Part shown: piece after piece, positions 43,661 to 64,000 of the stretch
How the letters are laid out: the number at the start of each line of letters is the position of its first letter
Numbering within the stretch: position 1 is the first letter of the stretch
Assembly: GCA_016165875.1 (NCBI GenBank)
Contig: JABBOT010000012.1
Location: 12,998,732 to 13,062,731, forward strand
Direction of reading: 5' to 3'
DNA from: Acanthopleura granulata
Taxonomy: Eukaryota; Mollusca; Polyplacophora; Chitonida; Chitonidae
Length of the DNA: 64,000 nt
The notes under the pieces: model-generated
Database searches by the model: none
What the model was told of the DNA's origin: nothing
Seen by the model: the letters and a program-made list of their open reading frames with translations, nothing else
Translations under genes and position numbers: made by a program

Positions 43661-45474
43661 TTATGTGTGTTCCAAAATCTTAAAGGCTAGAACAGCAGCA
43701 CAGGCTGCTCCGATCGTCAGCATGCGATTTACATGTGAAGTATATGAACCACTGGCAACTCCCTGATCTGGGCAAGGAGAGAGATGTTGCGCTTCAGCAG
43801 AATCACTGGATTCGTCTTTCACTTCTGGCATGCCACGGTCACTAAGTCGCATTGTCTGATGCGAGTTATTGGGAGCCGCAGATGGTTCGAAATCCGTATC
43901 GCCATTCTTGAAAGCACCGTCACAAACCCATTTTGTGTTGGGTGTACAAGGTAACGAAGAGCTAGCATTTTTCTGGATTAGTTTATCAGGTTCCGCGAGG
44001 GCATTTGCTGCGTAAGATGGTCTACCTTCTTGGTTGACCTTTGTATTAGGCGCTGCAGTGGCCACCTTGGGACACCATTCGATGTTGGCCATGGTGCTAC
44101 TGGGAAAAGAACTACGCTGATGACTGACTAGGGCTTTCTGATTCTTCAGGCTTGTTTCCATGTTGGGCAAAATTGTAGATGCCTCACTGTCAAAGAACAC
44201 CGACGCTTGGGAAGGATGAGGTCCAAATTCTTTCACTGACTGTTCACTGAAAGCTTCCTTTGGTACAGTGGCCATGTCGTTGGACTTCCCTGTGTATATT
44301 TTCTTGTTATGGGTTGTGGGCGGATCCGTGTATCCAAAGGTAGGCGGACTCTTGTTCAAGTGAGCAGCAGGTGAATTGATATCTCCGGAAGTGTGAACAT
44401 TAACAGATACAGAAGACGTGCCTCTTCTAATGTCGATGAAGCTAGAGCTCCTCTGTAAATGTTTTTTTTGCACACCAACGAAACTTTCGCTGCTCCCAAT
44501 GCCCGGATTAACGGTGCACTGCGGTCGCATGTTGTAAGAATGTAAACTTTTCATCGTGTAGTCGCTGAATTTTTGTTCAACCTCATCTATAAACTGTCTC
44601 CTACGTTTGAAGAAAGCCGAGTTGATAGGTGGCTCTGTCACGATATTTTCACCTAAGATCATCTCTGATTTCTGCCTGGTTTTATTCACATCGCTGACCC
44701 CAACATCCTGGGATGGCCATGCGGGATTCTGCTCCACTGTATGTGGTACATGAGAAGCAGGGTTATGTGTTGAAATCTTATCCAATTCGAACTCGGTAGA
44801 GCTTCGTTTCAAATTAGTTAGCCCGGTAAGGGTCACACTGTGCCTGGCAGACGAGAGACACTCATTAAGAAAACTGGTTCCCTCGTCTGGCTGACTTTCA
44901 AACCTATCCTCTACACGATAAAGCATTTCCCCCTCTGACCCCACGCTTGTCATGTTTCTAGGTCCTGGCGCTCGTGTTGCAAACGATGGCTGCTCCCTAA
45001 TTTTTTTGCCCATGGTCAAGTTTCCTTCCTGTCTATATGTAATATGTTGCTGTGCATCAGGAGCTGATGAGTGTTGTTTGGTAGCTCCTTCAGTGCCCGA
45101 TCTGACTTTGTTTTTGCCAGAGTGTCGTCTCGACGAATCGGAATTCCGACTCGACTGACGGTCTTCTGACAACCTTCTTGGATGCCTGGAGTCAGCGCTG
45201 ACTCCCGAACTTTCAGTGAGTCCCTTATATCCTTGTCCCCCCAAAACAGTGGATTTCACACCTCTTGAGTTCAGGCGCGTCTTTTGTCGGCGCATATATG
45301 GCCCGGCCGACGTGTCTTCTTCCAAGTGTGTCAAGATGTCATCCCTCTGCATTTTGGAAAGTGTTTTCCATAACGTACCCAGAGTTGCGCGACGTGTTGT
45401 CACCCAGTCTTCGAACAGCGCGAGAGCTGGGGATTGCGCTCTCTGAAACTGCTGTATTTCTTTCACGGAATAAC
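43661..45474 (-). CDS. MAVS: MAVS-like exon 4: second half of Death domain, linker, membrane anchor
   Basis: Acceptor TTTTTAACAG, then 604 codons to TAA at 43661-43663. The first fifty codons complete the Death domain: SVKEIQQFQRAQSP, FEDWVTTRRATLGTLWKTL and RDDILTHLEED, which line up with the MyD88 pattern of L-x-x-W, a Gly-x-L/V-x-x-L-L helix and the R-D-D-V/I-L motif. The long linker has clusters of Ser/Arg (for example RNSDSSRRHSGKNK) and one basic-then-acidic helix (FFKRRRQFIDEVEQKFSDY). The end is MLTIGAACAAVLAFKILEHT. Being one long 1.8-kb uninterrupted exon with a preserved frame, it is clearly under coding constraint. Confidence 0.88.
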
Positions 45475-47272
45475 CTGTTAAAAATACACATAGTAATAAT
45501 ACTTATTTCATGGCTGACTCATACAGCTGGTATGTAATGTTTAAGTTGTACAGACACAGAGAAGCTTTACCCAATCACAGGCAAACCCGGTAAACCCAAC
45601 ATGCAAATCTGGGAATTTCATTCTCTGCCGATTTGAGCAATTAAATGACCTCCTCTCCATGTATATACATGTATAAGAAGATCGGCACACTTTCAACGAC
45701 TGAAGGAATGTGCAGTGATTGCATCTACACTAACAAACTCACCATCAATATAATGAAAGCAGTTCAAAGTGTAATATCGCATTTTAAAAGATATATGAGC
45801 CATTGATTTTCTGTGTTCAGTAATGAAATGTAAAGAGGGAAAGTTATTTCATACATGACCATCACTCTACAATAAATGTTTGTGTTCTGAATCCAGTGCG
45901 CACAAATTCACGAGTAAACTATGAGTTGTTTTCTGTAATCCTGTTTTGGGATTGTATGGAAAGGGAAAGTATTCTTACCAACGTTTTCTGCAAAAGTCCG
46001 CCAGTTCTCAAATGTATCCAGATCTAAGAGCTTAAATGCCTTCTGAAGTCCCCCCGTGAGTTCTCTGACAGGGGTGTATTTGTCAACATGATGGCCCCGT
46101 CTCGTATTGTCGTCTGCAATGCAGAAACCAGAACATTTTATGAACACTTCAATGTTTCGTTAATATTTTTAACGTAGCTGCAGTCACGATATTTAAAATA
46201 CTTACCTATTTATAGTGTTTTAAGCAAAGGTCCTACAGGCAAAACATTATACCAAACAGTTTCGCACTGAACATTTTAGTGCATAAGGGGCCAGAATGTT
46301 TTTCTCTTCATGGAAATTATTGCAGATGGCCAAAGTAACACGCAAGACTAAACTGCCAGAAAAATGCTTAAATTTTCAAGATTGAATGAAGCACTCGATG
46401 TGATCGAAAAAATGGTAATAGTAATTGGTAATTGGTTGAAAAAAATGGTACCTCGGAGTGTTCGTCCCTGCAGGTCGGCTTCCAATGTGTCTGCTATGCG
46501 GGGCAAACCTACATCAGGGTGTCTTAAAGCTGCACAAAGCTCCGTAAACCAATTGTCCCTACCCCAAAGATACTGTATGAGAGCTTGAACGGCTATTGCC
46601 TTGCCTTTGTTTCTCTGCTCGCTCTGAACTGTTTCCTGGAAGAAAGCACCGTATATATGATAACATGCGTGAAACCATGCAGGCATGAACAAACCAGTGG
46701 CTCCATTGCAACACAGTTGCAATTTTGAAAAGTTAACGTCAAAATGCGTGTTGCTGCAGCCTTGTAGACCACTCCATCAAACCATGCTACTAGCTAGTAG
46801 GCGCAATCCTATGTAATGTTTTATATCTAAGTCAAACAGGCAGCAACATTACTCAAAATTTCTGAATTCACCAGAAACAGTAAGCTGCTTTTGTCCCACA
46901 TGTCACCCATTATGTCGCCTCTTGGGTCAAGCTTTACTCTGTAATGTAACTGTGCACGAATGTGCACGTCCATAATACATGTGTATCAGTGGTACACAAT
47001 TTGTTGATGTATTACACAAATTACACCACTTGCATACAGCTGGTATACAAAAATAATGTGGATGTGCATTTTTGTCACGATAAGTTTTACCACTCGTGCA
47101 CGGTAGTTTTTATGGAGTAGTTAGTATATATGTGAAGCTGTTATTGTGTTACCTTTCTGGCCGAAGAAATACACGGTAAATATGGAAGCATGACCTCGGG
47201 GTCAATCACTTCGACAAGTTCCGGGAGCCTTTTGGTTACCACGTCCCGTGGTCTCGGTCCTTCGGCGAGCAT
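43661..47272 (-). CDS. MAVS: MAVS-like CARD-Death-transmembrane adaptor (whole gene)
   Basis: Four coding exons on the minus strand: 47153-47272, 46452-46635, 45979-46113 and 43661-45474, phases 0, 1, 1, giving 750 residues. Residues about 5-100 form a CARD with the motif LPYLPC, identical to that of vertebrate MAVS as I remember it. Residues about 118-200 form a Death domain of MyD88 type. Residues 201-729 are a Ser/Thr-rich, probably disordered linker. Residues 731-747 are a short hydrophobic anchor followed by EHT, a tail-anchor layout. Known role of the family: relay of RIG-I/MDA5 signals at the outer mitochondrial membrane through CARD filaments. The CARD plus tail anchor supports MAVS; the Death domain is extra. 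I see no pLxIS IRF-docking motif; PSQAS at 567-571 is a possible TRAF site. Confidence 0.85.
45979..46113 (-). CDS. MAVS: MAVS-like exon 3: first half of Death domain
   Basis: Acceptor CTGCATTGCAG, donor G|GTAAGA, phase 1 at both ends, so the exon is symmetric. It encodes LTGGLQKAFKLLDLDTFENW and RTFAENVG, the first helices of a Death domain with the conserved Trp followed by A-E-x-x-G. The split inside the helix 2-3 region is completed by exon 4. Confidence 0.85.
46452..46635 (-). CDS. MAVS: MAVS-like exon 2: most of the CARD
   Basis: Acceptor TTTCTTCCAG, donor G|GTACCA, phase 0 to 1. Encodes KGKAIAVQALIQYLWGRDNW, then FTELCAALRHPDVGLPRIAD. The W-x-x-x-x-x-ALR segment followed by a D/G-L-A-D-like helix matches the C-terminal half of the vertebrate MAVS CARD (WVEYFIAALRGCELVDLAD from memory). 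Confidence 0.85.
47153..47272 (-). CDS. MAVS: MAVS-like exon 1: start of the CARD
   Basis: ATG at 47272-47270, preceded in frame by TGA 24 bases upstream. Forty codons run to a GTAACA donor at 47152. The peptide ends VMLPYLPCISSARK; LPYLPC is the recognisable signature. The upstream 130 bases include an ETS-like ACTTCCTG. Confidence 0.85.
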
Positions 47273-47579
47273 CTTTGAGCTTCTGCCCACGACTCAGGCT
47301 AGTGTACTGTTCTTCGGTAATAAATTTACGATGTCTTGGCTACTTCCTGTTTGCGGATGACATTTTATGTATCGACTCCTACCGCTAGACCATGATTCCA
47401 ATAGAATGGTTTGCTGAAAGGAAAAATAAACTGCTGTTTAAGCGATGGATATTTATGTTCTAGTTACCTTTGATTCTTTACACTGTAAATTTCGATGTTT
47501 AACTTATAAACACTTTTAGTCATCAGACATTATACACTTGGAGATCATAGCATTATAGTATAGACCATTATACGTGTTT

Positions 47580-47812
47580 TCAATGATCCGAAGCCTCCCA
47601 CCAATGCGGTCGCTGTGAGTTCAAGACCAACTCATGCTGGCTTCCTCTCCGGCAGTACGTGGGAAGGTGTGCCAGCAACCTGCGGATGGCCGCAGGTTTC
47701 TCCCGGTCTCTGCTCCCGTTTCCTCCCACCATAATACTGGCCGCCGTCGTATAAGTGAAATATTCTTCAGTACGGCGTAAAACACCAATCAAATAAATAA
47801 ATAAATAAAATA
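47580..47812 (+). mobile_element. Most complete SINE copy, tRNA-derived head
   Basis: Head CCAATGCGGTCGCTGTGAGT and a B-box GAGTTCAAGACC, then CATGCTGGCTTCCTCTCCGG, the body CGTACGTGGGAAGGTGTGCC, TTTCTCCCGGTCTCTGCTCC, AAGTGAAATATTCTTCAG, and an (AAAT)n tail to about 47812. It lies 300 bases upstream of the MAVS-like start, within its promoter region. The other copies in the window are 5'-truncated versions of this one. Confidence 0.92.
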
Positions 47813-49862
47813 TATACGTGTTTTAGACACTACTTTTTAATACTTAAATATATGTGTATATTTATTTAACACGCGTGTTTGAAGTTTAAGCACCCTTTAA
47901 ACGCTTTCGGCGTTGGTCATTTTACAATGTATACCAAAATGTTTCCAAGCATTTTTGTGCTTATTAAAAGAATCTAATAAAAATGTAAAGATTATTAAAA
48001 CCGGACATTTATTTACTTGCTGGATTGGCGCTTAATGCCGATTGGGGTAAATGAGCTAAATGAAGGGGGAATCATGAACAAATCTGTTTTGTTCAACAAG
48101 AAATGCAATCTCCTGCAAACGATGAAATAATTGAAGCCCTGTATAGTTCGGCAAATAGCTACAGGCTCCACACGAGCAAGCCATTCAAGCTATACATTGT
48201 GCGAAGACCAAGAGGACCCAATGATCGTATAGTGACACTACGCGTCAACAAAGGCGACAGCCTATCACCTATATATACCATGGTATAACCTTCAGATATC
48301 GCAAAAGTAGGCTAAGACAAGCGCATGTCCATAAAGGCATTCGCTACTCTGCGTGTGAAATCCCACATTTCGCGAGAGCTGTGCTGACAAATGTTCACCT
48401 TGGGATATACTACACTGGATCCCAGCTTCATTAAAACGGCGATTGCCTAAACCTAGATGTATTAACAATTTGCGAGTGTTCATAAAGCCAAAATGTGTAA
48501 GCAGATAAAAGTGCAAATGTCGAAAAAGAGTACTATATATAGCGTACGTTCATAGAAATAGTCTCGGCATATTTTTTTTAAATCAGCAAGACTTCAAGGG
48601 AGATAACTTTAGACAAACTTTAGGGGGCAGTAACATCCTTGTCTTAGCTATCATGGCCACCAAAAGTCCGGCTAGATTCAACTTGTCGGTTTGATTCAAC
48701 AGTGATTTGCTATTAAAATCAAACTAAACCATTTAACTTCATCACATTAAATATTTACTTGATTCCCTTTCCGCAAAGAGAAAGGGACACAAACAGACGT
48801 CACTCCGTAAAGGCTGGGACCACTGTACACAGTCCGACTGTCAAAGTATTGTGGCCGAGGGTTGTTAGCAAAATTTTGAAGAAAAATTGACACTACAGGG
48901 AGCATTTTACCATCATTTCTATTGGTGATTGTTAAGCTGAATAAATGATAGTTACAATCATTTAAAACAGTGCCCGTAATGTTCTAGTTCTGTTGTTGAA
49001 CATATATGTAAAAACACTTTCAGGCCAGTAAGTGCACTAAAATGTTTACTTTATGAACTTTATTATTTGTGAATTGAATTATGTAAGTCTTAGAAGGAAA
49101 TATATCTCTATGGATCAAGTACCCATTGTGATTTAGAACTTAAAATTTACAGTCACAAGATCAAAACAGAATTTTTGTCTTTTAATCCTTGAGTTATCAA
49201 AGAACCCCTAACAGAGCCCCCGTTTATATGAGGGCTTCAGCTTTTATGCTTCTCCCATTTAGTCTGTCAGAGACCTCCTCCCAATCCCCTTCTTCGGGTA
49301 AAGAGAAAGAACCCATTCCGGACAACCTACTTTTTTTTAAAAACGGTGACTTTCGCACTGATCAATTTGATCGAAAATGTATCATTTCACTGACACATTG
49401 TTGTGATGGGGAAACACTGAGCATTAGGGTGACTTGAAGAAGACATATGCATTACAGTAAGACAGTAGCAGTTCATACCCAAGGGAAAGGCTGAAAAATT
49501 TCATCCTTTAAACTTCATGCAACGTGACATGATCCTGGCTCTCCTGTTCCTAATATAAGTGCCATGCATGTGCAATGTACTTGTATAGGGCATACACTTC
49601 TCATGCTTTTTGTTTGTTTTTTTTACTTGCACAGCCCCAAAAAACCTTTAAAAAAATGCATCATTTTTTCATCCTCGTATTGAAAACATATCATCTTTTA
49701 GGCTCAGTGTTTACATGAAGTGAAACTTTAGGGAATACACTATACATGTATATCCACACTTTTCTTAGTTTTATGCTCTTCGACCATTTCACCTAAAGTA
49801 TGTGACAAAACTTATTTTATTTCCTTCTTGCATTTTTAAATGAATGTGTCAACAGAACATAA
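47813..49862. other. MAVS-like 5' flank up to the Gypsy insertion
   Basis: No supported gene. A 61-codon plus frame at 48103-48288 has somewhat protein-like composition but no splice context or family resemblance. A 13-codon ATG frame at about 48653 (MATKSPARFNLSV) has a good start context but stops at once. Confidence 0.4.
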
Positions 49863-50178
49863 TGTAAGGCAGGAACAAGAACACCAGCTCGTGATGATAT
49901 GTGAAAGGTGTTTATTTCAGCATGTGTGGCAGTCACAGAAACCAAGACCCGAACATCATACAGCAGCAGACGACAACATCGGGCAGAGTGCTGACACGTC
50001 AGTATTGTAGGGAGTATGACTAGTTTTTTTCGTAGTGTTCTATATCGTGTTTCTCTCGCTCACAAATATGGACGCCGCTTGTGTATAACTTTACAACACC
50101 AAAAGAAACGAACGGTAGGACCGTAACTAACCGTTTTAAAACGTCGTATGCAACGGACACTAAATATAGCATGTTACA
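49863..50178 (-). repeat. 3' LTR of the Gypsy element
   Basis: 316 bp, running TGTAAGGC to GTTACA on the plus strand, which is a TG..CA inverted end pair. It is similar to 55650-56011 throughout, including GCTGACACGTCAGTA and AAACGAACGGTAGGACCGTA. Confidence 0.93.
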
Positions 50179-50180
50179 AA

Positions 50181-50187
50181 CTTCCCT
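50181..50187 (-). other. Polypurine tract of the Gypsy element
   Basis: AGGGAAG on the minus strand directly abutting the 3' LTR, the expected plus-strand primer position. It is short. Confidence 0.5.
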
Positions 50188-50645
50188 GGTACATGGTGTC
50201 GTCCTCGACAACTATTAATGAACAATATTTAAAGACATCTGCCGTGTTACACATCTGTGACTTCTATAAGCTCTGACAGTTCACTTATTAGCAAGCAGTT
50301 GTACTAGCACAATTGGTTCTAGGCAATGTGTTCAACCACTTTAGGATCGAATGAAGAACAGACTGCTTCGTGTGCCGATGGTGGAAGGTATAGGTTGCTG
50401 TGTTGTTCAGCATTCTGCCTTGAGGTTCGGAGTAACTGTACTGCAGACGAACTTGGAAGTTGTTCGACTTCGGGACCTTGGTGACCCAGGGCTTGGGGCT
50501 CCCCTGCCGCAACTGCAGTATCTCGTTCACCTTCATGGTCATGGATGACAGGAAACTCATCTGGTGTGCCCGAACTGGTGAATTGTGGCGAGTTTTCATA
50601 AATAAACACACCACTCTACAACTCGTCGTTTGTGTCTTCCTCATT

Positions 50646-51992
50646 TCAGTTTAACTTCTCTGGGAGTGTTACAGGTTCATTGTTAGCATTTGGTGGATCT
50701 TCCTTGTCGAAAACTATGTCTCTCATGTCCAAAAGGTCCATTCTGTTCCCCGTCTTAGACTCTCCATCACCCACCAACGGCTCTATGGTGTAGACATTAC
50801 CGTCGAGGTAGGACCTGTCGATGACTCTGTATGGAATGGAGCTCCAAGTATCCTGAATTTGGCGTCTGGTCCTGTGGCCCTGCTTTCTTAGCAGAACACG
50901 ATTTCCTATGACTAACCCTGCATCGTTGACCAGCCGCTCTTGTCTCAGCTGCCGTTGAGGACACGCCTTCTTAGTGCTCAAAGCAACAAGATGGTATGCC
51001 TCTTTGAGTCTCTGTAAGTGATCTGATATATAGTCGTCAACCTAACTATAACTGGTTTCTGTGCCGTCTTCACCAAATAATTATCTACTGGTAGGCTCCC
51101 TCCCAAAGAAAAGGTAGTACGCGAATAACCTGTGCTTGAATGTGGAGAGCAGTTGTAAATGTAAACTAACTCCGGTAGATATTCATTCCAGTGGTTCCTT
51201 TTTCTCCTGTGGAAGTGTTCTCAGAAGATCGTGCATAGTTCGGTTGAAACGCTTACACTGACCACTTCCTTGTTGGTGGTATGGCGTGGTTCCTGTCTTG
51301 CTTACTCCATATATTCTGCAAAGCTCGTGAACGACTTCGCCCTCAATGCATCTTTCCTGGTCACTACGCATTCGGAGAGGAACACCAAAGCGAACAAATC
51401 AGTTTTTCACGAGGACTTCTGCAACTGTTCTTGCCTTCTGATTCTTAACAGGGATGTCTTGGGTGTATTTGACGAATGCTTCCGACAACACCAGTTGTCA
51501 CACCGTTTTCTATGTAGTTCGACCCGGACTCAAGAGCTGTGAAGTTTAGCGCGACTACTTCCAGTGGTTTCTTGGCAATGAATGATCCAATACTTGTATA
51601 CACTCGTTTCCCGGCTTTCGCTGTAATCCATCGGATACAGGAATGACAATACTTTTCGATGTCTCGATACATCCCGTGCCAATAACATCTGGATTTTGCC
51701 AATTCAAATGTTCTTTCAGGACCTTGAGGACCAGCACTGTCGTGTACAGTCTGCAGCACCTCAGCCTGAAGACACTTGTTTCGTTGAAGACTTGCCTGAT
51801 GACCCTGGGAAGGGAAGTGGACTCATTCTGAGGAACGTTCACTACCATTTTCTCTGTACGGTAATTCCTGGGATTCTGTCCATGGCCCATCTTCCGGTTC
51901 AATGCATCAGCATTCCTATTTGATTTCACAGACCTGTACTTCGTAGTGTTAAGTCCAACAGTCAGCAGCCCATCTGGACTCAACGGCATCAA
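50646..51992 (-). pseudogene. Gypsy integrase remnant
   Basis: Pieces in different frames carry the parts of a retroviral-type integrase in order. A zinc-binding HHCC end (CHSCIRW) lies near 51.6 kb. Core-domain pieces near 51.2-51.5 kb include the [11 protein letters not shown] motif around 51.25 kb. A C-terminal basic segment follows at 50646-50981. Frame changes occur near 51.55 and 51.37 kb, and between 50.98 and 51.18 kb. A short further tail of the polyprotein (50319-50609) runs toward the LTR. Confidence 0.85.
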
Positions 51993-52608
51993 GCTTCCTT
52001 GACGTCTGCAAGTAGCTTAACGGGTTGTTGTTTGTATAAACACAGAACTTCGCTCCAGTGAGCAAGTCTCTGAACTTTTCCGTTCTGGCCCACTTCAACG
52101 CCAACCGCTCTAACTTCATACTGCTGCAGTTGTTCATCTTGCGTTCAGCATCTCGGAGTCCGCGACTGGCGTAGCACAGGACAACGCTCTTGTTTCCCTG
52201 TTTCTGTGACAAGACAGACTTGCGTCAACCTCAAGGATGAAGGGCAAGGAGAAATCTGGATGTCCCAAAAGAGGAGCCCGAGCTTGTCATTAAGTTTCTT
52301 AAAAGCTTCATCGCACGCGGAGGTCCAAACAACAGAAAAGAAACTTCATTGCACGCTGAGGTCCAAACAACCTGCTTAGCCGACTCCTTTTTCTGTCGCT
52401 TCTTGGAGTACTCCTCACTGAGGAGTGCATGTAACGAAGTAGCTAACTTTGCATAGTTTGCATCAAACCGTCGATAGTAATCGGTGAATCCCAGAAAACT
52501 TCGTACTTCCGTATCGGTCTCTTGGATCTTCCATTCTCGAAGAGCACGAGTCTTTTCGGGGCCAGGCGAAATTCCATCTTTACTTAAGACATGGCCTAAA
52601 TACCGCAA
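51949..52608 (-). pseudogene. Gypsy connection and RNase H remnant
   Basis: RYLGHVLSKDGI and SFLGFTDYYRRF mark the end of RT and the connection region; YASRGLRDAERK and VYTNNNPLSYLQ mark RNase H. The catalytic Asp in the YTDNNP-type motif is Asn. A short direct repeat around 52315-52372 (GAGGTCCAAACAAC twice) disrupts the frame between them. Confidence 0.88.
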
Positions 52609-53553
52609 ACTTTAATTGAACATATGACATTTGGTTTGGATGATTTGACCTTCAGGTTTCTGTCTCCAAGCCTTGTCAGCACGGTATCCAGCCCCTCAAG
52701 TGTTTCCTGGTAAGTTGTTCCGAAGACAAGAATATCATCCATATATATCAAGATGGACTGAAAGTTCCAGTCACCAAACACACTATCCATCAGGCGCATG
52801 AAAGTAAATGACGCATTGGACAATCCGAATGGCATGCGAAGACACTCGTAGAGTCCACCTGTACCAACTATGAAGGCGGTCTTCTCGATATCTGCGGATG
52901 CAACAGGTACTTGATTGAAACCATGTGCTATGTCGATTCTGCAGAAAAAACCTGCTCCCTTTAGAGCTTGGAGAGCTTCCTCAATTCTCGGGAGAGGGTA
53001 GGCGCCTCTGTGGATTTTACTGTTTAAGGCCCGATAGTCCACGCAAATCCTCAAACTCCCATCCGATTTTCGGACGGGAACAACAGGAGAAACTCAAGGG
53101 CTTGTGGATTGGCGGATAATACCTCTATCGAGTGCCCACTTCAGGCAGGTAATCTCGCACTTCTCCCCACTGGTGAGGTAGAACGCCACGATGAGGCACT
53201 CTAACAGGAACATCGTCGATAGTAACAACCCAGTCTAGGACACGATCGCAATATCCAGTGTCATAATCCGACATGCTGAAGGTACTGGCGTGTTTAGCCA
53301 AAAGTTCCTTAAATGCCAGGCCCTGCTTCTTTGTCAATCCTTCTCCAATGTCCATACTTGACATCATCTGATCAGCTACATGCACTTTCACTGCACTTGC
53401 CTCACGCGCAATAACCTCACAGCTACTGACTTGCTGAAGATCTACATTCGGTAACACCACAGCAGATCGAAGCTCACCAATGCTCATCCTGGGCTGTAAA
53501 TCCTTATCTCCAACGATACACAACTGCATGGGGACAGTTCCAGTCTTGCCCAC
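52596..53553 (-). pseudogene. Gypsy reverse transcriptase remnant
   Basis: Two frames: 53125-53553 covers the approach to RT, ending in a PHRG-x-x-PHQW motif, and 52596-53054 holds RICVDYRALN, MPFGLSNA and the YMDD catalytic box at 52734-52745. The frames are separated by a stop and frameshift near 53.1 kb. The catalytic core is intact in this piece, but the polyprotein is not. Confidence 0.92.
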
Positions 53554-53604
53554 AGTAACAAGTGACCGTCCTAATGCAAATCCTCTTGGAACGGGACATG
53601 ACCG

Positions 53605-54318
53605 CTAATGATATTCCACCATACCCTGGTTCTGGATGTTATTCTGAGCAGCTATTCCATCGGTGACTTTGATGGATCTCGCAGGTATCATTAGGTGACC
53701 TTTACTCAATACACGAACACGACTCAAAACATTGTCAACAACCTCATGACACACAGTCTCATGAAGCATGGCTGAAGCCTTGCACCAGTTTGTTTCACCA
53801 GACCTGGCCAACTGCTTGAAAAAGTCACTTCCCAATTGCACACCCAGAGTCTTCATAATGTAATTGATAATGTTTGCCCCAATGACACCAGGAACATCTC
53901 CTTTCCTCTGTTCAAGGGACTTGTCCCTCACTACAAGAAAACCCATTTCACGAAAAATTTGGCCAAGGGCTATCAAATCCACTTCAAGGTAGCCTAAGAA
54001 AGGCACGCTGAATCTTTGAGCTCCGCTTATCTGGATAAATGATGACACATCTGGTAATTCCCCTTAACTAACCAGATTCTCCTTGAAGAAGCTTTCCGTC
54101 ACCGTTGAAACTGATGTCCCAGTGCCCAATAAACACGTCACCCAGTTCCGGCCAACTTTCACCCTTGCTGTTAGACTTTCTGCGATGATCTTCTGCCTAA
54201 ATGAGCCAGTATCTTCTGGCACGTCCACTACGTGGCTCTCCAAAGCTGACGGCTTTAATTTAACTGTGTCCGGCTTTGATTCTGCTTGCTTTTCCTCTGA
54301 TCCTGCCTGCGTGCACAT
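53605..54318 (-). pseudogene. Gypsy aspartic protease remnant
   Basis: The flap-to-C-terminal part is recognisable from the PGVIGANII segment, and the active-site triad lies at about 54119-54129. There the catalytic Asp is replaced by Gly (LLGTGT), which would abolish activity. A stop near 54.06 kb splits the domain in two. Confidence 0.8.
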
Positions 54319-55273
54319 TTCGCCTTGAAATGATCTAGCGACCCATCAATCCAACATCTCCGGTCTCCTCTCTTGTCCCCTGGCGTTGAAATAGCTTGAT
54401 TGTTCAACTGCTTCATCAGCCCGTGCAGTTCTTCCTGTTGATTTGCGATTGAGAAATTGATCGGCCTGAGACTTAAGCTGTTCGGACACGGGAGCATGTT
54501 CACTGACTTCCTGGACCAAAACATTCCTCTTTGAGTTGCCATTCGGTACCTGAGCAGCAGTTCTCATCCACTTCAACAGTTGGTCGCGGGTCTCAAAGAA
54601 ACTCAGATGGGGAGCCTCGATATTCAGTCGTCGAATTTCTGTTGCCAATCTTTCACCAGTAATAGCCTCTGCCAGACGTCCCTTAAGTGCCTTCTCTCTG
54701 TCAGGCCTGAAAGATTCGTCCAACTGAAGAATCCTGTCACAGAGCTGGACTAGCTTCAGACAAAAGGTTGGAAAGTCCTCTCCAACAGGCTGCTGACAAG
54801 AATAAAACCTCTCCTGCAGTTATGCCAAACCGTCACCATCACGGAAAATTCTGGACAGAACATCAAAGATTTTGTCGGGATCAGAAGTAACCTGTTCTCC
54901 TGGTCCACAGACTTCCTGTCTAGCGGGAGCTGAGAGATGTCCGATAATGAAGGCTGTTTGTTCAGCTTTATTGAACTGTGTGAGGACAATATGGCTCTTG
55001 ATCGGAGATCCATTCTTGGATGCTTGGTTCATGGGGATCTTCAGGGCAGCCACGAAATCCTTCCACCTTCCTTTGAGTGGCAATGAACACAGGTCTTGGG
55101 ACCTCTGGTGTTTTTAATCGCGCTGCGCTCAACTGTGCTTCATTCCGCCGTGCCTCGTTGACCAATCGCATGACCTCCACCTTTGCCGCTTCAGCTTCAG
55201 TCTTCGCTGCAAGTGATCTCTCCCTCTCTGCACTCAACTCATCCCTCAACTTCGGAAGTTCACTGTCCGCCAT
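54314..55273 (-). pseudogene. Gypsy gag remnant
   Basis: It starts at an ATG (55271-55273) with a Glu/Ala-rich coiled coil (ELSAERERSLAAKTEAEAAK), continues through a capsid-like helical region in shifted frames (54.76-55.08 kb), and ends in a zinc-knuckle-like C-x2-x-x4-H-x4-C in which the second Cys is Asp. Several frameshifts are present. Confidence 0.8.
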
Positions 55274-55631
55274 AACCAGTTATTACTGTACCATATAACT
55301 CCTATACCAAACTGTAAAGCATACTGGCTTAATAAACTCATGGACACATAAAAAAACATGGGGCAATGCATGGAAAAATAACACTGGAAATATACAAGAA
55401 ATGTTCCTTACTGTATCGTACTTTACCCTGTTCTAGATCGCTTTGTGAGTCCATTAAAATCTGGATCAGTATACAGATGGCAACTCAGTATTTGTCACAT
55501 TCCTCTAGCTCCAAAGTGTTCAGCAACACCCGGTGCCCAATTTCCGTCATCTGTCACAGTATTGGCAACAACGACTCATCAACATGAAAATATGATATTA
55601 TGGGGTGGACATCACTAACCGTAGACACGGA

Positions 55632-55647
55632 CCCACTTCTGACACCA
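55632..55647 (-). other. Primer binding site, tRNA-Leu type
   Basis: On the plus strand CCCACTTCTGACACCA, which equals the 3' end of animal tRNA-Leu as I remember it, lies two bases from the inner edge of the 5' LTR. Sixteen bases match. Confidence 0.85.
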
Positions 55648-55649
55648 AA

Positions 55650-56011
55650 TATAAGGCAGGAACCAGAACACTAACTCGTGACGATATGTGAAAGCTGTTT
55701 ATTTCAGCATGTGTGGTAGTCACAGAAACCAACCGCCTAACATAACACAGCACCAGTCATTGTAATCAGACGACAGCATGGGACAGAGTGCTGACACGTC
55801 AGTACTCTAGGGCATATGACTAGTTTTTTTCGTAGTGTTCTATGTCGTGTTTCCCTCGCTCACAAAAATGGATGCCGTCTAATCATCTGACCAGACGGCG
55901 GTTGTATATAAAATCATATAAATATACTACACCAAAAGAAACGAACGGTAGGACCGTAACTAGCCGTTTTAAAACGCCGTATGCAACGAACACTAACAGG
56001 AGCATGTTACA
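55650..56011 (-). repeat. 5' LTR of the Gypsy element
   Basis: 362 bp, aligned with 49863-50178. Its inner terminal dinucleotide is mutated (TATAAGG for TGTAAGG on the plus strand). It carries about 46 extra bases net, mainly around 55.88-55.93 kb. Confidence 0.93.
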
Positions 56012-56015
56012 ATAA

Positions 56016-58452
56016 CATTTCTATTCTGGGTTCAGTTAGCTAAAATATCAAATCTGCAATCTTGTTGCTTCTTTGTTGTAAGATACTGAAGATATTATTG
56101 ATATTGCAGGCCTTTGACATAATTATTAATCACTTAATCCACTGAGATCGCCCGGCTACATCGAGACGTATTTATGATGTGATTAAATAAAAGTATTGCT
56201 CAATCTTAAAAATAAAATAATCTGTGGAGGCCTGGACTTCTATCACAAGAAGATGCCACCTGCTTTACAGTTCCACTGCTGCAAAGTACACGTATTTTTG
56301 TTAAGTCCTCACTTGGTGCGCCCTGCATTATATCCCCCCAGCCGATCAAATGACGGGGAAAAAAATCCCCCCCCCCAAAAAAATTTCCGACCTACCTATC
56401 TACCCAGTTTTTTTCAGAGGTATTACACAAAATCAAATTTTTTTTGTGAATGGCCTAACATTCACATGAAAGCTACGCATTTTGCGACGCCCACTCACGT
56501 GTATAAAAACTTGCGCATTTCGCGAAGTGATTGCGGACTTATAAATGTCCGTTAAGGCGGTTGCCAATCACATATACTACGGTATAAACAACGTGGCATT
56601 GTCACTATATTATGTCTTACAACTTGGGGTTGCTACCAGCACATATAACTTATCTATACACTGACATGTCAACAACGAAATGTATCTTGAACTTCGTATT
56701 TACACCCTCTGCGTAAATCACAAAAAAACTGAACATCACGTGAGAGTTTTGAGGACCACCTGGGTATTTAGCGTACATGTGCGCCTAAGCCCCTATATCG
56801 CTAGCCTTTATGCACATGGCAGGCTAGAGTCCAGCCTGTAAATGCAAATACGTGTACACGCTCCTACATCTCACAAGAGACTGCCGGTGGTGGCAGTGGA
56901 TTATACATGTATATCGGGAATGTGGCATGTTCATATACAGAGGAACGTTTAGACTTTTTGCATGACTGATTTCTGACAATATACATGGAACAGAAACTGA
57001 TCACGTTAGGTCCTGTCACACACTTATATGTACTTACCAATAGATTTTGTATGACTGATTACTGACAATATTCTTGACACTCTTCGGATAATACTCTTTT
57101 TGTCCCAGCACTCCTGACTTGATAATGATATTTTAATCTAATATTTACCACAAATAAATAACGTAAGAATAAATACATCTTACCATACACCTAGACATAA
57201 TTACTTATAGGTTTTGTATGATTGACTTCTGACAATATAGTTGACATTGATCACGTAACACTCTGCCATGCATGTATTTAAATGCATGAAAATTTACCTG
57301 TGGGTTTTGTGTGGCTAATTTCTAATAATATACTTAGTTGACATCGATGGACTTCAGGCCCTGCCATACAATCATATGCATATTTACCTGTAGATTTTGT
57401 TTGATTACTGACAATATATAATTGACATTGACGACGTTAGGCTCTACCATATAATTATGCATAGTTACTGACAGATTTTGTATAGTTAATCTCTAAAACA
57501 TCTCCGAGCTCATAATTACAGTGCTACTGTCCGTTTCTATAGGCAGACTTACCTGTGGCTCAAATATACGATACTGATATTTGACAATGCAGCATGTATT
57601 GTTCATGTTAAGACATGTACAAATCATATTTAACAGTAACTATTGTGTTCAATTGGCCCTTGACGATATAAAAGTACACTATTGACAAATAAATTCCAAC
57701 ATACTTTCCACTTACCTCCACACTGCGGGCTTGTCTGTATCTTAATTTGATTGACGTCTGGAAATATGGCTGACTCTGATCACATGAGGATTCCACCATA
57801 TACAGTTAATTATATATATGTAAACACACCTTTATGTGTGGTAACATGGTTGATATCGAGGACGTATTTTGTCCAGAGCTACATGTACTGTTCCTGAAGC
57901 TGTTCCTTTCTCTGTCGTGGCGTTCACTGTTTGATGTAATCAGATGAAAGCTGATAGCCTACTGATCTCTGCGCACGCTCAGGCCGGGTTTCGTTTTCGT
58001 AAAGCTGCCCGTCTTTATTGCTCCTTGCTCCTTTACAGGCGATGATATCACGAGGGAAATCACGCGGCCACTGAAATAATACTCCTCCTGCATGCAGTAT
58101 TGGTCAGAAATAAACACGAGTCGCTTATAAACCAAGGCATGTATGTCAATTATAAAACTGACCTATATATGATATCGCTTGCAGGGTGCTCCTTATACAC
58201 TCTCTTTTACAGCCCTACGTATCTTAGACATGTACATGCAAAGCGACCAGAGCCCACGCACTTATAGCCTACCGATCAATACAGGCAGTGGCCTGTGTAA
58301 TGTGTTACATAGACTTGCATGTATGATGCTGTCTCACGATAGACCGTAAACATTTAAACACTATACAAGTTAGACATTGGTGAACGTGCATGATAACATA
58401 TATAAATGGAATTAAGTTACCGGCGTCATGCATAATATATAATATAATAATA
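56016..58452. other. Intergenic, with diverged repeat array
   Basis: No confident gene. The 119-codon plus frame at 56196-56555 is low-complexity and repeat-like. A diverged tandem array fills about 56.94-57.80 kb (separate entry). The 57.85-58.08 kb stretch is locally GC-rich with CpGs and could be a promoter. Confidence 0.4.
56944..57800 (-). repeat. Diverged tandem array with splice-donor-like sites on the minus strand
   Basis: About seven or eight units of roughly 80-110 bases recur, each with a version of TTTTGTATGATTGATTTCTG, ACAATATA, TTGACATTGATCACGTTAGG and CTGCCATACA on the plus strand. On the minus strand five units end in donor-like words: GAG|GTAAGT (57715), CACAG|GTAAGT (57552), CTACAG|GTAAAT (57387), CCACAG|GTAAAT (57297) and TTG|GTAAGT (57037). 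Several units are open from an ATG to this donor. Copies are strongly diverged. Confidence 0.6.
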
Positions 58453-58822
58453 GGGGAGTTTCGAGTTCGAACTCTTTTAACACTATAGCTAAGAAAAGCC
58501 CCACTGTACAATGTGACCTGACAAAAATGTTAGGCAGTTATTTTTGATTACAGTTACTATAACATGGACGTCTAAGACAAGTGTCACAGAGAGTTATGTG
58601 GACTAGGCGTACGATAGGCAAAACTGAGGGGCAGAAAGTTTTTTAACTTCAGAAGCTCCTGATTGAAGGAAAGGTCGTTTGTACCTCCCTAACACGGCAA
58701 GACAGGTGATCGGTAAATTACATTTACATCGGTAAATTACATGTGACATTTTTGATGTCACATGACACAGTTGGACTCTTTTTACGTTTTGTGACAAAAG
58801 AGTTCGAATTCGAAACTTCCCC
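58453..58822. mobile_element. MITE with about 26-bp terminal inverted repeats and TA target duplication
   Basis: GGGGAGTTTCGAGTTCGAAC at 58453 is matched by the complement of CGAATTCGAAACTTCCCC ending at 58822, with arms extending into CTCTTTT. TA flanks both ends (58451-58452 and 58823-58824). The interior of about 320 bp has no transposase. The TA duplication and size suggest a non-autonomous Tc1/mariner-like element. Confidence 0.8.
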
Positions 58823-58851
58823 TATTAACGCTTTATGTATCAGTATGTAAA

Positions 58852-58975
58852 CTAGTGATTTTATTTATTCATTTATTTATTCGTTTCTTTATTTATTCAT
58901 TTTTATTTTTTGTCTAGTGATTTTATTTATTCATTTATTTATTCGTTTCTTTATTTATTCATTTTTATTTTTTGT
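58852..58975 (+). repeat. 62-bp tandem duplication, T-rich
   Basis: Two identical-looking copies of a unit starting CTAGTGATTTTATTTATTCA at 58852 and 58914. Confidence 0.93.
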
Positions 58976-59182
58976 CTTTTGGAAATGCTGGGAAAAAGTG
59001 CAATTAAACAGTCTGGTGTGTTTGAACATGAAAATTGTATCATCCAAAAAGAGTGGTTAAGACGATCGTTCTTCCATCGCATGTATGTATATTTGCTTGG
59101 ATTTTTACCTAGTATGCGTTAACAATTTTTCAATCATATGACAACTAGGCGTCCTTGAATGAATATATACTTTGTCTTCCAG

Positions 59183-59283
59183 TGGCAGGGCGTGTCCATG
59201 TCGCTGAAGTGTTGTCGCCACTGGAACATGATGCCGAAGACACCAGACATGACAACCCACCTAAATCCGATAAAAGCTTATAA
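59183..59283 (+). CDS. Possible orphan last exon of an unrecognised plus-strand gene
   Basis: A clean acceptor TTTGTCTTCCAG precedes a frame (entered in phase 1) of 32 codons ending in TAA: AGRVHVAEVLSPLEHDAEDT and a polar end PPKSDKSL. Composition is coding-like compared with the flanks. A possible preceding exon lies at about 58979-59094 (EMLGKSAIKQSGVFEHENC), but its donor does not join in the right phase. I do not recognise the product. It could be a decayed gene or chance. Confidence 0.25.
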
Positions 59284-59492
59284 ACGTATTTAGGTCCATT
59301 TCAAGCAGTGAAATATATTATTTAAGGCGTGAATTTAAACGTATCATGTTTGATGGAACGTGGAATTAGAAGTGAGAAGTATTTGTAGAGTTTTAAGACT
59401 GTAAATAGATACTATATTTAGTACATAAATACTAGTTGGATGGTGTATAAATTGATATGTATACTAAGGGAGACAACTTTGTATGTGACTTT

Positions 59493-59504
59493 GAAAATGA
59501 AAGT
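59493..59504 (+). promoter_or_regulatory. IRF/ISRE-like site upstream of the tandem-CARD gene
   Basis: GAAAATGAAAGT fits GAAANNGAAA plus GT, the core of interferon-regulatory-factor sites, 220 bases upstream of the ATG. A κB-like GGGAAAATTC occurs on the minus strand at 59596-59605 but is a poorer match. The GAAANNGAAA core alone is expected once or twice by chance in a window this AT-rich. Confidence 0.35.
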
Positions 59505-59723
59505 AAAAAGGGAAGGGTTTCAGTTGCTTTCAGCACTGTTGTTCAGACGGATTCTGTTCCATGGCTAATTTGCCATTTCCAATGTGCCATGAGGAGAATT
59601 TTCCCGAGGTGCAGTTAGGCAGATAAACCACCATCTGGTATATTACAGTGGTTGAATTGCGTCAGCAAGAAATTAACTTCATCGAGGGAGAAATTTTTTT
59701 GGCATCTAAATCTGTCGCACAAA

Positions 59724-59874
59724 ATGGCGTCCGGCTTCGTACCGCCGCACTCCGGCTCTGAGCAAGCATACAGGAAAAACGTGATTAAACATCGCAATGC
59801 TATAGAGAAGAGGATAGATCCCGAGCAGATGTTGTCTTCGCCGGCTGCTGGGCCACTGAAAGTCTGCCTGGGTG
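59724..59874 (+). CDS. Tandem-CARD gene exon 1: start of CARD1
   Basis: ATG at 59724 in a fair context (AAAATGG). The frame extends upstream only to non-ATG codons. Fifty codons and one base to a GTAAGT donor. Contains AYRKNVIKHRNAIEKRIDPE, the first CARD helix with the D-P turn seen in RIG-I (DYIRKILDPTYIL from memory). The Pro/Ala/Gly-rich end bridges to helix 2. Confidence 0.72.
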
Positions 59875-62806
59875 GTAAGTAAGACGTCAGGTAGGCCCTT
59901 GCTAATAGCTAACGACATGCATGTACATGTACTTCGGAGTTTGAAGCCACACATAAGACTGCGTGTTCTGACTAAGAGTCGTACATGTATATCCATGGCT
60001 TCGAATGCTGACGAACAGTACCTGACTCTCAAAAACAACAGCATGTGCCCAGTATATTACCCAAACCATCATGAATTTGGTTCTGAAGTAATCAGACTTT
60101 AAGCGAAATAGTTCAGGAATCGATCCAGTAGGCTTATAAGCTACTTTTTTTTTCTTCTGTCATGACGAAACCCCGCTGCTTCAAGCCGATGAAATCCCAT
60201 GTTTTGGAAAAGTCTGTAACCGGTGTGGTGTTGGATTTGGATTTAATTACAAAACAGACTTTCCTCTAACAACCTGGTTCAGGCTTTTCAGCCAGTTTGT
60301 CACTGTGGGTGGGTTATGTTCTCTGTTATTTATCCATCCGCATGCTGTCGACAGCATAATGTATAGACGGCTACTCCATATATATAACCTAGGCCCACAT
60401 ATTCAGCAATGTAAATGACCCTCCTCCTTTTTCAATAGCTGACGTCAAACTTATCGATCGAAAGATGAATGTCAGAATATCAAATAAGCTTCGGTAGTGT
60501 TTAAAAAGGGTATATGCTGTCAGTTTCACTAGAAAAATTCTTTTCACGGTGCTAAATGAGTGGGTCAACCGCAAACAAATGTGTCTGCATAAAATGTACA
60601 ATAAACACCGGCTACTGGGTAATCTTATTCCGTGTGAGATATGAAACTTAAGCAACGTTTTATAACGATGAAAAACAATTAGTGGGTAGCGCTAATTGTG
60701 CCGCTGAGATATTACCTGTTGTTTTTGTTGTTGTTGTTACTGTTGTTGAAGCTGTAGATAATTGTTCATCTGTTCGTTCTAAAGTACCGTAAATATTTAT
60801 AGATTTGTGTGCATTTGAATGTCCAGATATTGTCGAATCAAGGTGAACAACTCTCCCAAACACATAAACAAGGGGACAATACTTTGCTTTTACTGGCGCT
60901 GGAAATGTGTATAGCCATGTGTATAGAGGCATATAACCCATGGTAAATCTACCTCTATATTTTTTTTTCTCCGCTTTTATCATACACCAGTGTATACCAA
61001 ATCCGGATAAAGCAACATCGCCATCAGTATTGGTTAGTCAAACACTAAAATTTTTCTAACCTGGATTTCCTTGATTTAGACTCTTTGAGATCTACTGAGA
61101 TACTTAGTATAGTGCTGTTCCTTCACGGAAGAGGGAGACTATAAAGATCCAAACTGTGTAAACTGGTTGGTGAACGACTTCCTTGATTCTCACGTGTTCT
61201 TAGTTTCGGTGCTGTAAGTGTTTTGAATATTGTCCGATGCTGAACATTTTCTGTGCATGCTCATTTTCAGGTGTCTTAAACCAAGTCTGAAAACTAGCCG
61301 GATTTGTGCATACTTGGTTATGTTTGTTTTTGCTTTTCTTTTATTTTTTTTTTCATTTTTAGCGATTTCATTGTTAACAACTGCTTCAAATATCTAAAGT
61401 TACTTGAACTGTTTGCAGACCAAAGCGTCCAAGAAATCAAGTCTCAGCAGTGCAACCGTGGACCATTGTCAGCTGCAAGAATGGTGTTTGATAGATTGGA
61501 GCAGTGTGAGAAGGCAGAAGTGTGGACTGCATTCCATAACTTAATACAAGAAGAGAGTGAGTAGATAAGCATGCAGGTGATGCGATTTTCAAGAGAATAT
61601 GCATTTAAGAATAATGATTTAATTCTTTATTTATTTCAAGACGGTTGGCTTTAAACATACAAAGCCTCAAATGTGCAAATGAATCTGTAATTATTGCTTA
61701 AGGTCACAAAGATACAATTGAATGAATGCTTATGGCTTAAGATCATAAAGGTACAAACAGCTTAACCCAATAATTAGAATAATTTTATTGATATGGCTTT
61801 AATGCCTCAAATATAATGATGGAGTGATTATGGCTTAACACCACAAAGGCACACAAATGTAGAAATGAATGAATGATTATGGCTTAACGTGACAAAGGTA
61901 TCCAAATGTGGAAATGAATGAATGATTGATTGATAATGGCTTAACACCAGAAAGTTGGACAAATGTAGAAATGAATGAATGATTGATTGATTATGGCTTA
62001 ACACCACAAAGGTACACAAATGTAGAAATGAATGAATGATTATGGCTTAACACCACAAAGGTATCCAAATGTAGAAATGAATGAATGATTATGGCTTAAC
62101 ACCAGAAAGGTGCACAAATGTAGACATGAATGCATGATTATGCCTTAACGCCACAAAGGTATCCAAATGTAGAAATGAATGATTGATTGATTATGGCTTG
62201 ACGCCACAAAGGTACACATGAATGAATGGTTATAGCTGAACACCTCACAGGTCACTGGCTTCACACTCAGTCGGCGAGGTCGGCGACAGTGACCACTTAC
62301 ACTGGCCAGGGATCAAACATTTTACATACATTAATTAATATAAATATTATATTGTATTAATGATAGCCCCAACAATTGGAATCAAAAATGTGATAACACA
62401 TGTAAAACAACATGTATTTTTATCCTTTCAGGAAATCTTATCTAATATGTTTAATGGATATGTTACACTGTGTTATAATTTTTTTCAGATTACGAGAGAA
62501 TAATTGACATTTTAAATCAGGAGGGCACACACAAGGATGATGCGCACATGAGCCGGATCAGTCAGATTGGTCCAACGGTTACAGACAAGATGTTCCCAGT
62601 GATAATCCTGGATCATCTGGCGAAGCGAGAATGTTTGACCAGGGAGGATCATGAAAACATAACAGCAATCAAAAGTGATATTGCTGGATCTAGAATGCTG
62701 TTAGAAAAGCTAAGGTTGTCAAAGAAAAGAAGATGGTACGAATATCTTATAGAGGCGTTGATTAATAGCAGACATGAGGAGGTGGCACAACAAATCAACA
62801 CAGACA
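59724..62806 (+). CDS. RIG-I-like-receptor-type tandem CARD protein, N-terminal part (runs off window)
   Basis: Coding exons 59724-59874, 61419-61556 and 62489-62806, every junction in phase 1, total 202 residues plus one base so far. CARD1 spans exons 1-2 and the first codons of exon 3: RNAIEKRIDPEQML, QSVQEIKSQQCNRGPLSAAR, EVWTAFHNLIQEE. It follows the RIG-I CARD1 layout (D-P-x-x-I-L, then the G-P-x-x-A-A helix start, then the W-x-x-F-x-x-x-L segment). CARD2 is in exon 3: VIILDHLAKRECLTREDHEN, AGSRMLLEKL, RWYEYLIEAL. Known role of the family: cytosolic RNA sensing with CARD-CARD handover to MAVS. The helicase that would prove an RLR lies outside the window, so a CARD-only protein remains possible. 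Confidence 0.75.
61419..61556 (+). CDS. Tandem-CARD gene exon 2: middle of CARD1
   Basis: The acceptor TGTTTGCAG gives Asp across the phase-1 junction; an alternative acceptor at TTTTTAG (61364) would hit a stop in this phase, which decides the choice. Encodes QSVQEIKSQQCNRGPLSAAR and the helices up to FHNLIQEE. Donor A|GTGAGT. The motif EIKSQQCNRGPLSAA aligns with YIQAEKNNKGPMEAA of human RIG-I as remembered. Confidence 0.75.
61640..62235 (+). repeat. Minisatellite of about 49-60 bp units in the tandem-CARD gene intron
   Basis: At least ten imperfect units of the type ATGAATGATTATGGCTTAAC, ACCACAAAGGTACACAAATG, TAGAA, some with inserted GATTGATTGA. The outer units are more diverged than the inner ones. 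It lies between coding exons 2 and 3. Confidence 0.92.
62489..62806 (+). CDS. Tandem-CARD gene exon 3: end of CARD1 and whole CARD2
   Basis: Acceptor TTTTTTTCAG, 318 bases, donor A|GTAAGA at 62807, so translation must continue in a further exon. The first residues NYERIIDILNQEG complete CARD1. After a short acidic/His linker comes CARD2 with IGPTVTDKMFPVIILDHLAK and SDIAGSRMLLEKLRLSKKRR, ending EEVAQQINTD. Reading through the donor would give a stop eleven codons later, an alternative CARD-only short form. Confidence 0.78.
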
Positions 62807-64000
62807 GTAAGACAAATTACAATATGTATAAGTAAATTCTTATATATTAGAAAAATATATTAAGATAAATCCTCTTCGTTTTATAAAAAAAACTGCTTTA
62901 CAATGAATTGTTCTGTGAATAATATAAATCTCTGCATTCTGATATATGTAATCAAGTCGTAATTTAGGTACATGTATATCCATAATTCCACGTGTAACTA
63001 TGTCTGAAAGATACTTTCCCAGACATCTACATGTAGTTATTATGGAGTATATACAACAGCACACATGTATAGTCGCGTATTCGAAACCGAGGACATCCGA
63101 CCATTAGCAGTTTTACTCGCGCCAAAACGCTTTGCTCGCGCAGTCACGGCGATGAAAACATTATCAAAATAATTCATGGAAGTTAATGGGAAAGTGTGCT
63201 TCATGGCCTCATAAGTCCAAAATTATGTTTCGTTAACGTTCATAATTTTCATATGCTATGCGGATTGTTCTGCAGTAAAACATACTGCAATTTAAAGTGA
63301 TTATATGGCGTAGTTCTCAGAATATTGTCCAGTGTTGTTCATTCTTCTGTCCCTGCCCATATGACCTTTTATCTCGTCGTCTGCTTGCCGCTGCCAAGTG
63401 AAGTGCCCGGTGGTCTCGAATGAAGTGGCAGTATGCCAACATGATTAATCAGTGCCCATTCATTGAAGGAAGATTCCACCCTTAAATTAAGTTCACATCA
63501 TCTGAAATACTCCAAAGATGTATTTCATTATTTTGGCATTCATAAAACGTGAAACTCATCCAGTTGTAAGAGTTTTTTGGGGGGAGGGGGGGGGACATAT
63601 TGAACTGGCTAGAGCACAGTGACATCACTGATTCTGTTTTCCTACTGAATATACTGTAACTATTTCCTCATTAAATACACATACAGCTGTTGTATTATAT
63701 GGACATAAATGTTGAACGTGGACATGTGGCAATAAGAGGGTGAAAGAATGTGTGACGTCACTATACTTCGGCCTGTTCCGTATGGTTCAGAACGTCCATC
63801 CTCTGCACCGCAGCCTTTATTTCCATTTGAATCACCGTAATAAAAATGCCAAGCAACACTGGATGTGGAGTCAGCACGAACTGGCCTATTAAATGATGCT
63901 ACTTTATTCAGAGGTGTTCTATTCGTTTAGCTGCATGTGCTTTTACAACGAAGTCTTCAGGTTTGTTCTCGTGATTGTAACCAAAGACCTCTGAAATCTA
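62807..64000 (+). other. Intron of the tandem-CARD gene, to window end
   Basis: No phase-1 acceptor followed by a convincing exon was found. A CpG-rich patch with GCTCGCGCAG-type words lies near 63.11-63.15 kb, and a poly-G run near 63.58-63.59 kb. Confidence 0.4.

Follow-up and report, generated by a model that had tools for sequence, protein, structure and literature searches.

We find that a 64,000-nt stretch of the Acanthopleura granulata genome (contig JABBOT010000012.1 of assembly GCA_016165875.1, positions 12,998,732 to 13,062,731; hereafter, the window) carries two host genes in divergent orientation, an adaptor gene on the minus strand and a tandem-CARD gene on the plus strand. Taken together, the evidence makes it probable that the first encodes a MAVS of the molluscan type and that the second is the 5' end of a RIG-I-like receptor (RLR) whose CARDs would seed the CARD of the adaptor. 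The start codons lie at 47272 (minus) and 59724 (plus), 12,452 bp apart, and all five complete introns of the two genes have GT/AG ends. Both genes were confirmed, and their family calls are supported. A preliminary description of this DNA had placed the start codons at these positions, where we also find them, had called the minus-strand gene a MAVS-like adaptor and had proposed profile searches for CARD and Death domains; the joined gene models all score above the Pfam cut-offs in such searches, and the adaptor has the CARD-Death-transmembrane (TM) plan of molluscan MAVS. Its RLR call for the plus-strand gene stands in that the two CARDs resemble those of RLRs and follow the same order, whereas a full RLR is unproven, a helicase match being absent from the window.

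Splicing the four exons of the adaptor gene, from 47272 to 43661, gives a reading frame of 750 codons closed by a stop codon, encoding a complete 750-aa protein, and an AATAAA lies 111 nt downstream of the stop. In the joined model, residues 11-80 match Pfam CARD_2 (E 1.9e-12), and not Pfam CARD, while residues 130-199 match Death (E 3e-12); beyond this CARD-Death part extend ~550 residues with a hydrophobic tail. As a control for splicing, unspliced exons were searched singly against Pfam at E 0.01: exon 4 passes for Death (30.9 bits vs a cut-off of 22.6), and exon 2 falls below the CARD_2 cut-off (22.9 bits, E 9e-5). The last exon is held in a 613-aa stop-to-stop frame, compared with a longest frame of 198 aa across 60 simulated 64-kb sequences. 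When the adaptor CARD alone was searched against the PDB, 15 of the 16 sequences listed at E up to 10 were RIG-I, MDA5 or MAVS, the remaining one being a designed protein. The best match was RIG-I chain 6bzh_A (1.8e-5 summed over both chain CARDs), and the string LPYLPC is common to the adaptor CARD and the MAVS chains. The solved structures nearest to the Death domain are p75NTR (6.4e-8) and then MyD88 (3.1e-5); its 15 listed matches at E up to 1 comprise ten Death-domain proteins, four viral spike fragments and one antibody chain, with the spike and antibody matches (E 0.01 to 0.6) taken as chance.

The C-terminal tail has the highest 17-residue hydropathy of the adaptor, 2.1, with 2.2 for the corresponding tail of P0001, and is a candidate transmembrane segment predicted by hydropathy only. 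P0001 (623 aa, one record) was the only homologue found, in a search whose scoring was limited to the 7996 candidates with the most words in common with the query, and is 38% identical to the part of the adaptor encoded by exon 4. It retains the end of the Death domain, several linker blocks and the tail, without the CARD, and may be a single-exon reading whose matched part corresponds to adaptor exon 4. Judged from its predicted protein, the minus-strand gene is a MAVS adaptor of the kind already known from oyster and scallop.

The three exons of the tandem-CARD gene, from 59724 to 62806, join into 202 codons with both introns in phase 1, and the model is open at the window end. The joined protein matches CARD at 2.4e-7 and, over two stretches, CARD_2 at 1.5e-21. 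Unspliced, exon 3 passes for CARD_2 (41.3 bits, cut-off 28.2), and exons 1 and 2 have no Pfam match at E 0.01. Against the PDB, the protein matches the RIG-I tandem CARDs at 1.6e-7, and no matching CARD outside the RLR/MAVS group was found. CARD1 is nearest to RIG-I CARD1 and CARD2 to MDA5 CARD2, so that the order is that of RLRs, a RIG-I CARD1-like domain followed by an MDA5/RIG-I CARD2-like one. A structure of CARD2 predicted from the single exon had a mean predicted local distance difference test score (pLDDT) of 46.9 and was not used further. Diverged repeats lie at 61815-62252, within the intron preceding the CARD2 exon.

Table 1. Features of the two divergent genes and of the interval between them (window coordinates).
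Feature	Position	Strand	Content
Adaptor exon 1	47153..47272	minus	start codon 47272; first CARD part; donor GTAACA
Adaptor exon 2	46452..46635	minus	remainder of CARD
Adaptor exon 3	45979..46113	minus	Death domain start
Adaptor exon 4	43661..45474	minus	remainder of Death domain; linker; tail; stop; homologue P0001
C-terminal hydrophobic tail, candidate membrane anchor	43673..43723	minus	residues 731-747, MLTIGAACAAVLAFKIL
LTR (long terminal repeat) retroelement	49861..56012	minus	end direct repeats; RVT_1, RT_RNaseH and Integrase_H2C2 matches
Tandem-CARD exon 1	59724..59874	plus	start codon; first CARD1 part
Tandem-CARD exon 2	61419..61556	plus	remainder of CARD1
Tandem-CARD exon 3	62489..62806	plus	CARD2 (residues 113-200); either spliced onward or read through to stop 62833-62835

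Several observations weigh against reading the two genes as MAVS and RLR. The single-stretch PDB scores of the adaptor CARD are modest (0.015 on RIG-I CARD1 of 6bzh_A and 0.057 on MAVS), and MAVS chains start at 0.049 in the PDB listing. Among TRAF motifs, one PxQxS match only is common to the adaptor and P0001. The adaptor is identical to human MAVS at three of 12 filament residues (D23, Y30 and R65), has one conservative change (D40 to E) and differs at E26, R37, R41, R43, L48, D53, W56 and R64 (the 12 residues, and F16, being among those that matter for human MAVS filaments; PMC3932521); this identity is no better than the overall 16/58, and F16 falls outside the aligned stretch. In the plus-strand gene, the single-stretch score of CARD1 on RIG-I CARD1 is likewise modest (0.0062). 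Searches with the tandem-CARD protein returned no homologue at E up to 10 among 76 candidates, nor any in a repeat search among full-length proteins (518 candidates). Neither a helicase nor a C-terminal RNA-binding domain was found within the window; a Pfam scan of 62.7-64.0 kb in all three frames of the plus strand, up to the window end at 64000, gave no helicase match, its sole match being to DUF1924, below the cut-off (E 0.085). Finally, the donor at 62806 is the weakest of the gene's three, with rank 271 among 4419 GT sites when scored with a simple matrix, and reading past it meets the stop at 62833-62835 after nine codons, giving 211 aa.

This early in-frame stop and weak donor would also fit a stand-alone tandem-CARD protein of 211 aa without a helicase, which would bind the CARD of the adaptor as a regulator or decoy. 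There is a possible counterpart in Aplysia, where LOC101858480 is described as having two CARDs of RLR type while lacking both helicase and C-terminal domain (PMC9334734), although its gene model may be incomplete. Arguing against a CARD-only protein, the donor has GTAAG and its use would preserve the phase 1 of the two preceding introns, and on the plus strand no AATAAA or ATTAAA occurs closer than 835 nt past the stop. We regard this explanation as possible but unlikely, and consider from the sequence that the plus-strand gene is fairly likely to be a full RLR.

If it is, its helicase and C-terminal domain, encoded past 64000, would bind viral RNA, and this binding would free the two CARDs of the sensor, which would seed the adaptor CARD. 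The adaptor would be tail-anchored, its N-terminal CARD taking in the signal and its Death domain and linker handing it on by recruiting a kinase and TRAF. What the sequence shows directly is the domains and their order, the exon structure and the hydrophobic tail; we infer contact between the two proteins, a membrane location of the tail and a full sensor encoded by the plus-strand gene. The mechanism is most likely the same as in bivalves: RLR CARDs would seed the CARD of the adaptor, and kinase and TRAF would be recruited through its Death domain and linker.

The preliminary description had also seen no other convincing gene between the pair and had suggested shared regulation. The former holds for host genes, none of which was recognised, but the interval contains an LTR retroelement. 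We identify it as such because direct repeats (49861-50179 and 55648-56012; 77% identical with gaps, 87-90% in ungapped blocks) enclose frames for reverse transcriptase, RNase H and an integrase zinc-binding domain; three of the four retroelement frames searched match Pfam (RVT_1 4.3e-27, RT_RNaseH 4.5e-13, Integrase_H2C2, zinc-binding, 2.8e-15). Elsewhere in the interval, a six-frame Pfam scan of 55.4-59.7 kb found nothing exceeding a cut-off, and no host gene was recognised in 47.3-49.9 kb, a stretch with frames of at most 85 aa that was not Pfam-scanned. A short interspersed repeat lies at 47633-47809, just upstream of the adaptor, with relatives 76-91% identical to it at 1787-1900, 7380-7485, 31712-31879, 35076-35249 and 41184-41303.

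Shared regulation is unsupported. The retroelement, at 6.15 kb, makes up half of the 12.45 kb between the starts, and a bidirectional promoter common to both genes is unlikely because of this distance and the element within it. We scanned the window for regulatory motifs: GAAANNGAAA, which we take to be IRF-element-like, occurs 11 times vs 3.2 expected, a number reached in none of 100 shuffles, with the sites dispersed across the window and one of them 231 bp upstream of the plus-strand start. NF-kB-type sites number five vs 2.35 expected (14 of 100 shuffles reach that number), and none falls within 3 kb of either start. Most likely, the adjacency of the two genes has no special regulatory meaning.

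The neighbourhood could instead be a by-product of local CARD-gene duplication, the adaptor CARD and CARD1 being old duplicates. However, each of these two is nearer to RIG-I CARD1 in solved chains than to the other, and the introns within them lie about four codons apart and differ in phase. No third CARD gene was found in the window (CARD model, six frames, frames of 20 aa or more, above the inclusion threshold; the CARDs of the window were among those used to build the model, and its matches to them prove nothing). An 11-row CARD tree did not resolve, with no starred branch and long window rows, and was not used. We thus consider local duplication rather unlikely.

An inherited receptor-adaptor cluster, held together by selection and under shared control, would account for known partners adjoining. 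The preliminary description gives vertebrate receptors and their adaptor as encoded on separate chromosomes. By our rough estimate, such neighbours would arise by chance with a frequency of ~2 x RLR number / gene number; with an assumed gene number this comes to about 1 in 1000 or less, but the figure is post hoc. Together with the distance between the starts, half of it retroelement, the lack of NF-kB-type sites near either start and the standing of the nearby GAAANNGAAA site as one of 11 dispersed sites, this leaves the cluster doubtful. Its stronger form, an ancient cluster in which a full RLR lies beside its MAVS, the adaptor was born on the spot from the CARD of an RLR and this lineage has retained the linkage, seems very improbable; if true, it would preserve in the genome a trace of the origin of MAVS. 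Misassembly of the two loci is highly unlikely: the retroelement between them is presumably a usual place for false joins, but the window is without N and the retroelement's repeats are present at both ends, in order. Least credible is a RAIDD/CRADD-type CARD-Death adaptor, presumably with the same domain order, given that the adaptor matches CARD_2 rather than CARD, that no CRADD chain is among the PDB matches listed (E up to 10 or, for Death, up to 1) and that a 550-residue extension ends in a hydrophobic tail.

Elsewhere in the window, a gene recognised on the plus strand at 29471-35500 and the adaptor gene are arranged tail to tail. The former has HR1, anillin and PH matches in that order, anillin above the Pfam cut-off and HR1 and PH below, and from this domain set we take it to be rhotekin-like. 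No Pfam domain was found at E 0.01 on either strand of 1-28.8 kb, in a scan blind to genes without known domains, nor on the plus strand of 37-43.6 kb and in two minus-strand frames of 37-41.8 kb. A tRNA scan of the whole window found none.

In the literature covered, as far as the sources were available, experimentally tested molluscan MAVS come from bivalves only (PMC5557890, PMC9879056). The accessible part of the oyster study describes CgMAVS with a CARD, a Death domain and a TM segment; in full length it bound the RIG-I-1 CARDs, whereas a form without the TM did not, and it recruits TRAF6 (PMC5557890). The same source reports no binding between full-length RIG-I-1 and full-length MAVS, which counts against a simple picture, and no NF-kB activation by CgMAVS alone in human cells (PMC5557890). 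For scallop, the available text gives CfMAVS the same CARD-Death-TM plan, with CARD and Death binding different parts of a TBK1/IKK-epsilon-like kinase and no binding when both proteins are full-length (PMC9879056). An Aplysia study, in its available part, reports MAVS as absent there (PMC9334734), and bivalve RLRs are reported in tandem arrays, 8 of 13 in C. gigas (available part of PMC8998645). Our search, mainly outside subscription papers and partly of incomplete texts, met no statement of RLR-MAVS gene linkage in any animal. Should the neighbour prove to be a complete RLR, and should other molluscs show the same linkage, the origin of MAVS would become testable through synteny.

Compared with these systems, the plus-strand gene resembles RIG-I and MDA5 in having two CARDs in RLR order and differs in that its helicase and C-terminal RNA-binding domains are not in the window. 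It is also like Aplysia LOC101858480, going by the published description, in its two RLR-type CARDs with no recognised helicase, but may continue past 64000. The adaptor shares with vertebrate MAVS (IPS-1, VISA, Cardif) a single CARD_2-type CARD with LPYLPC, a long linker and a C-terminal hydrophobic tail; it differs in its additional Death domain, in its filament residues (3/12 identical) and in that TRAF motifs are mostly not found. Compared by domain plan, it is like CgMAVS and CfMAVS, with an N-terminal CARD, a Death domain and a C-terminal hydrophobic tail, and as a CARD-Death-tail adaptor with a complete gene structure it helps define molluscan MAVS.
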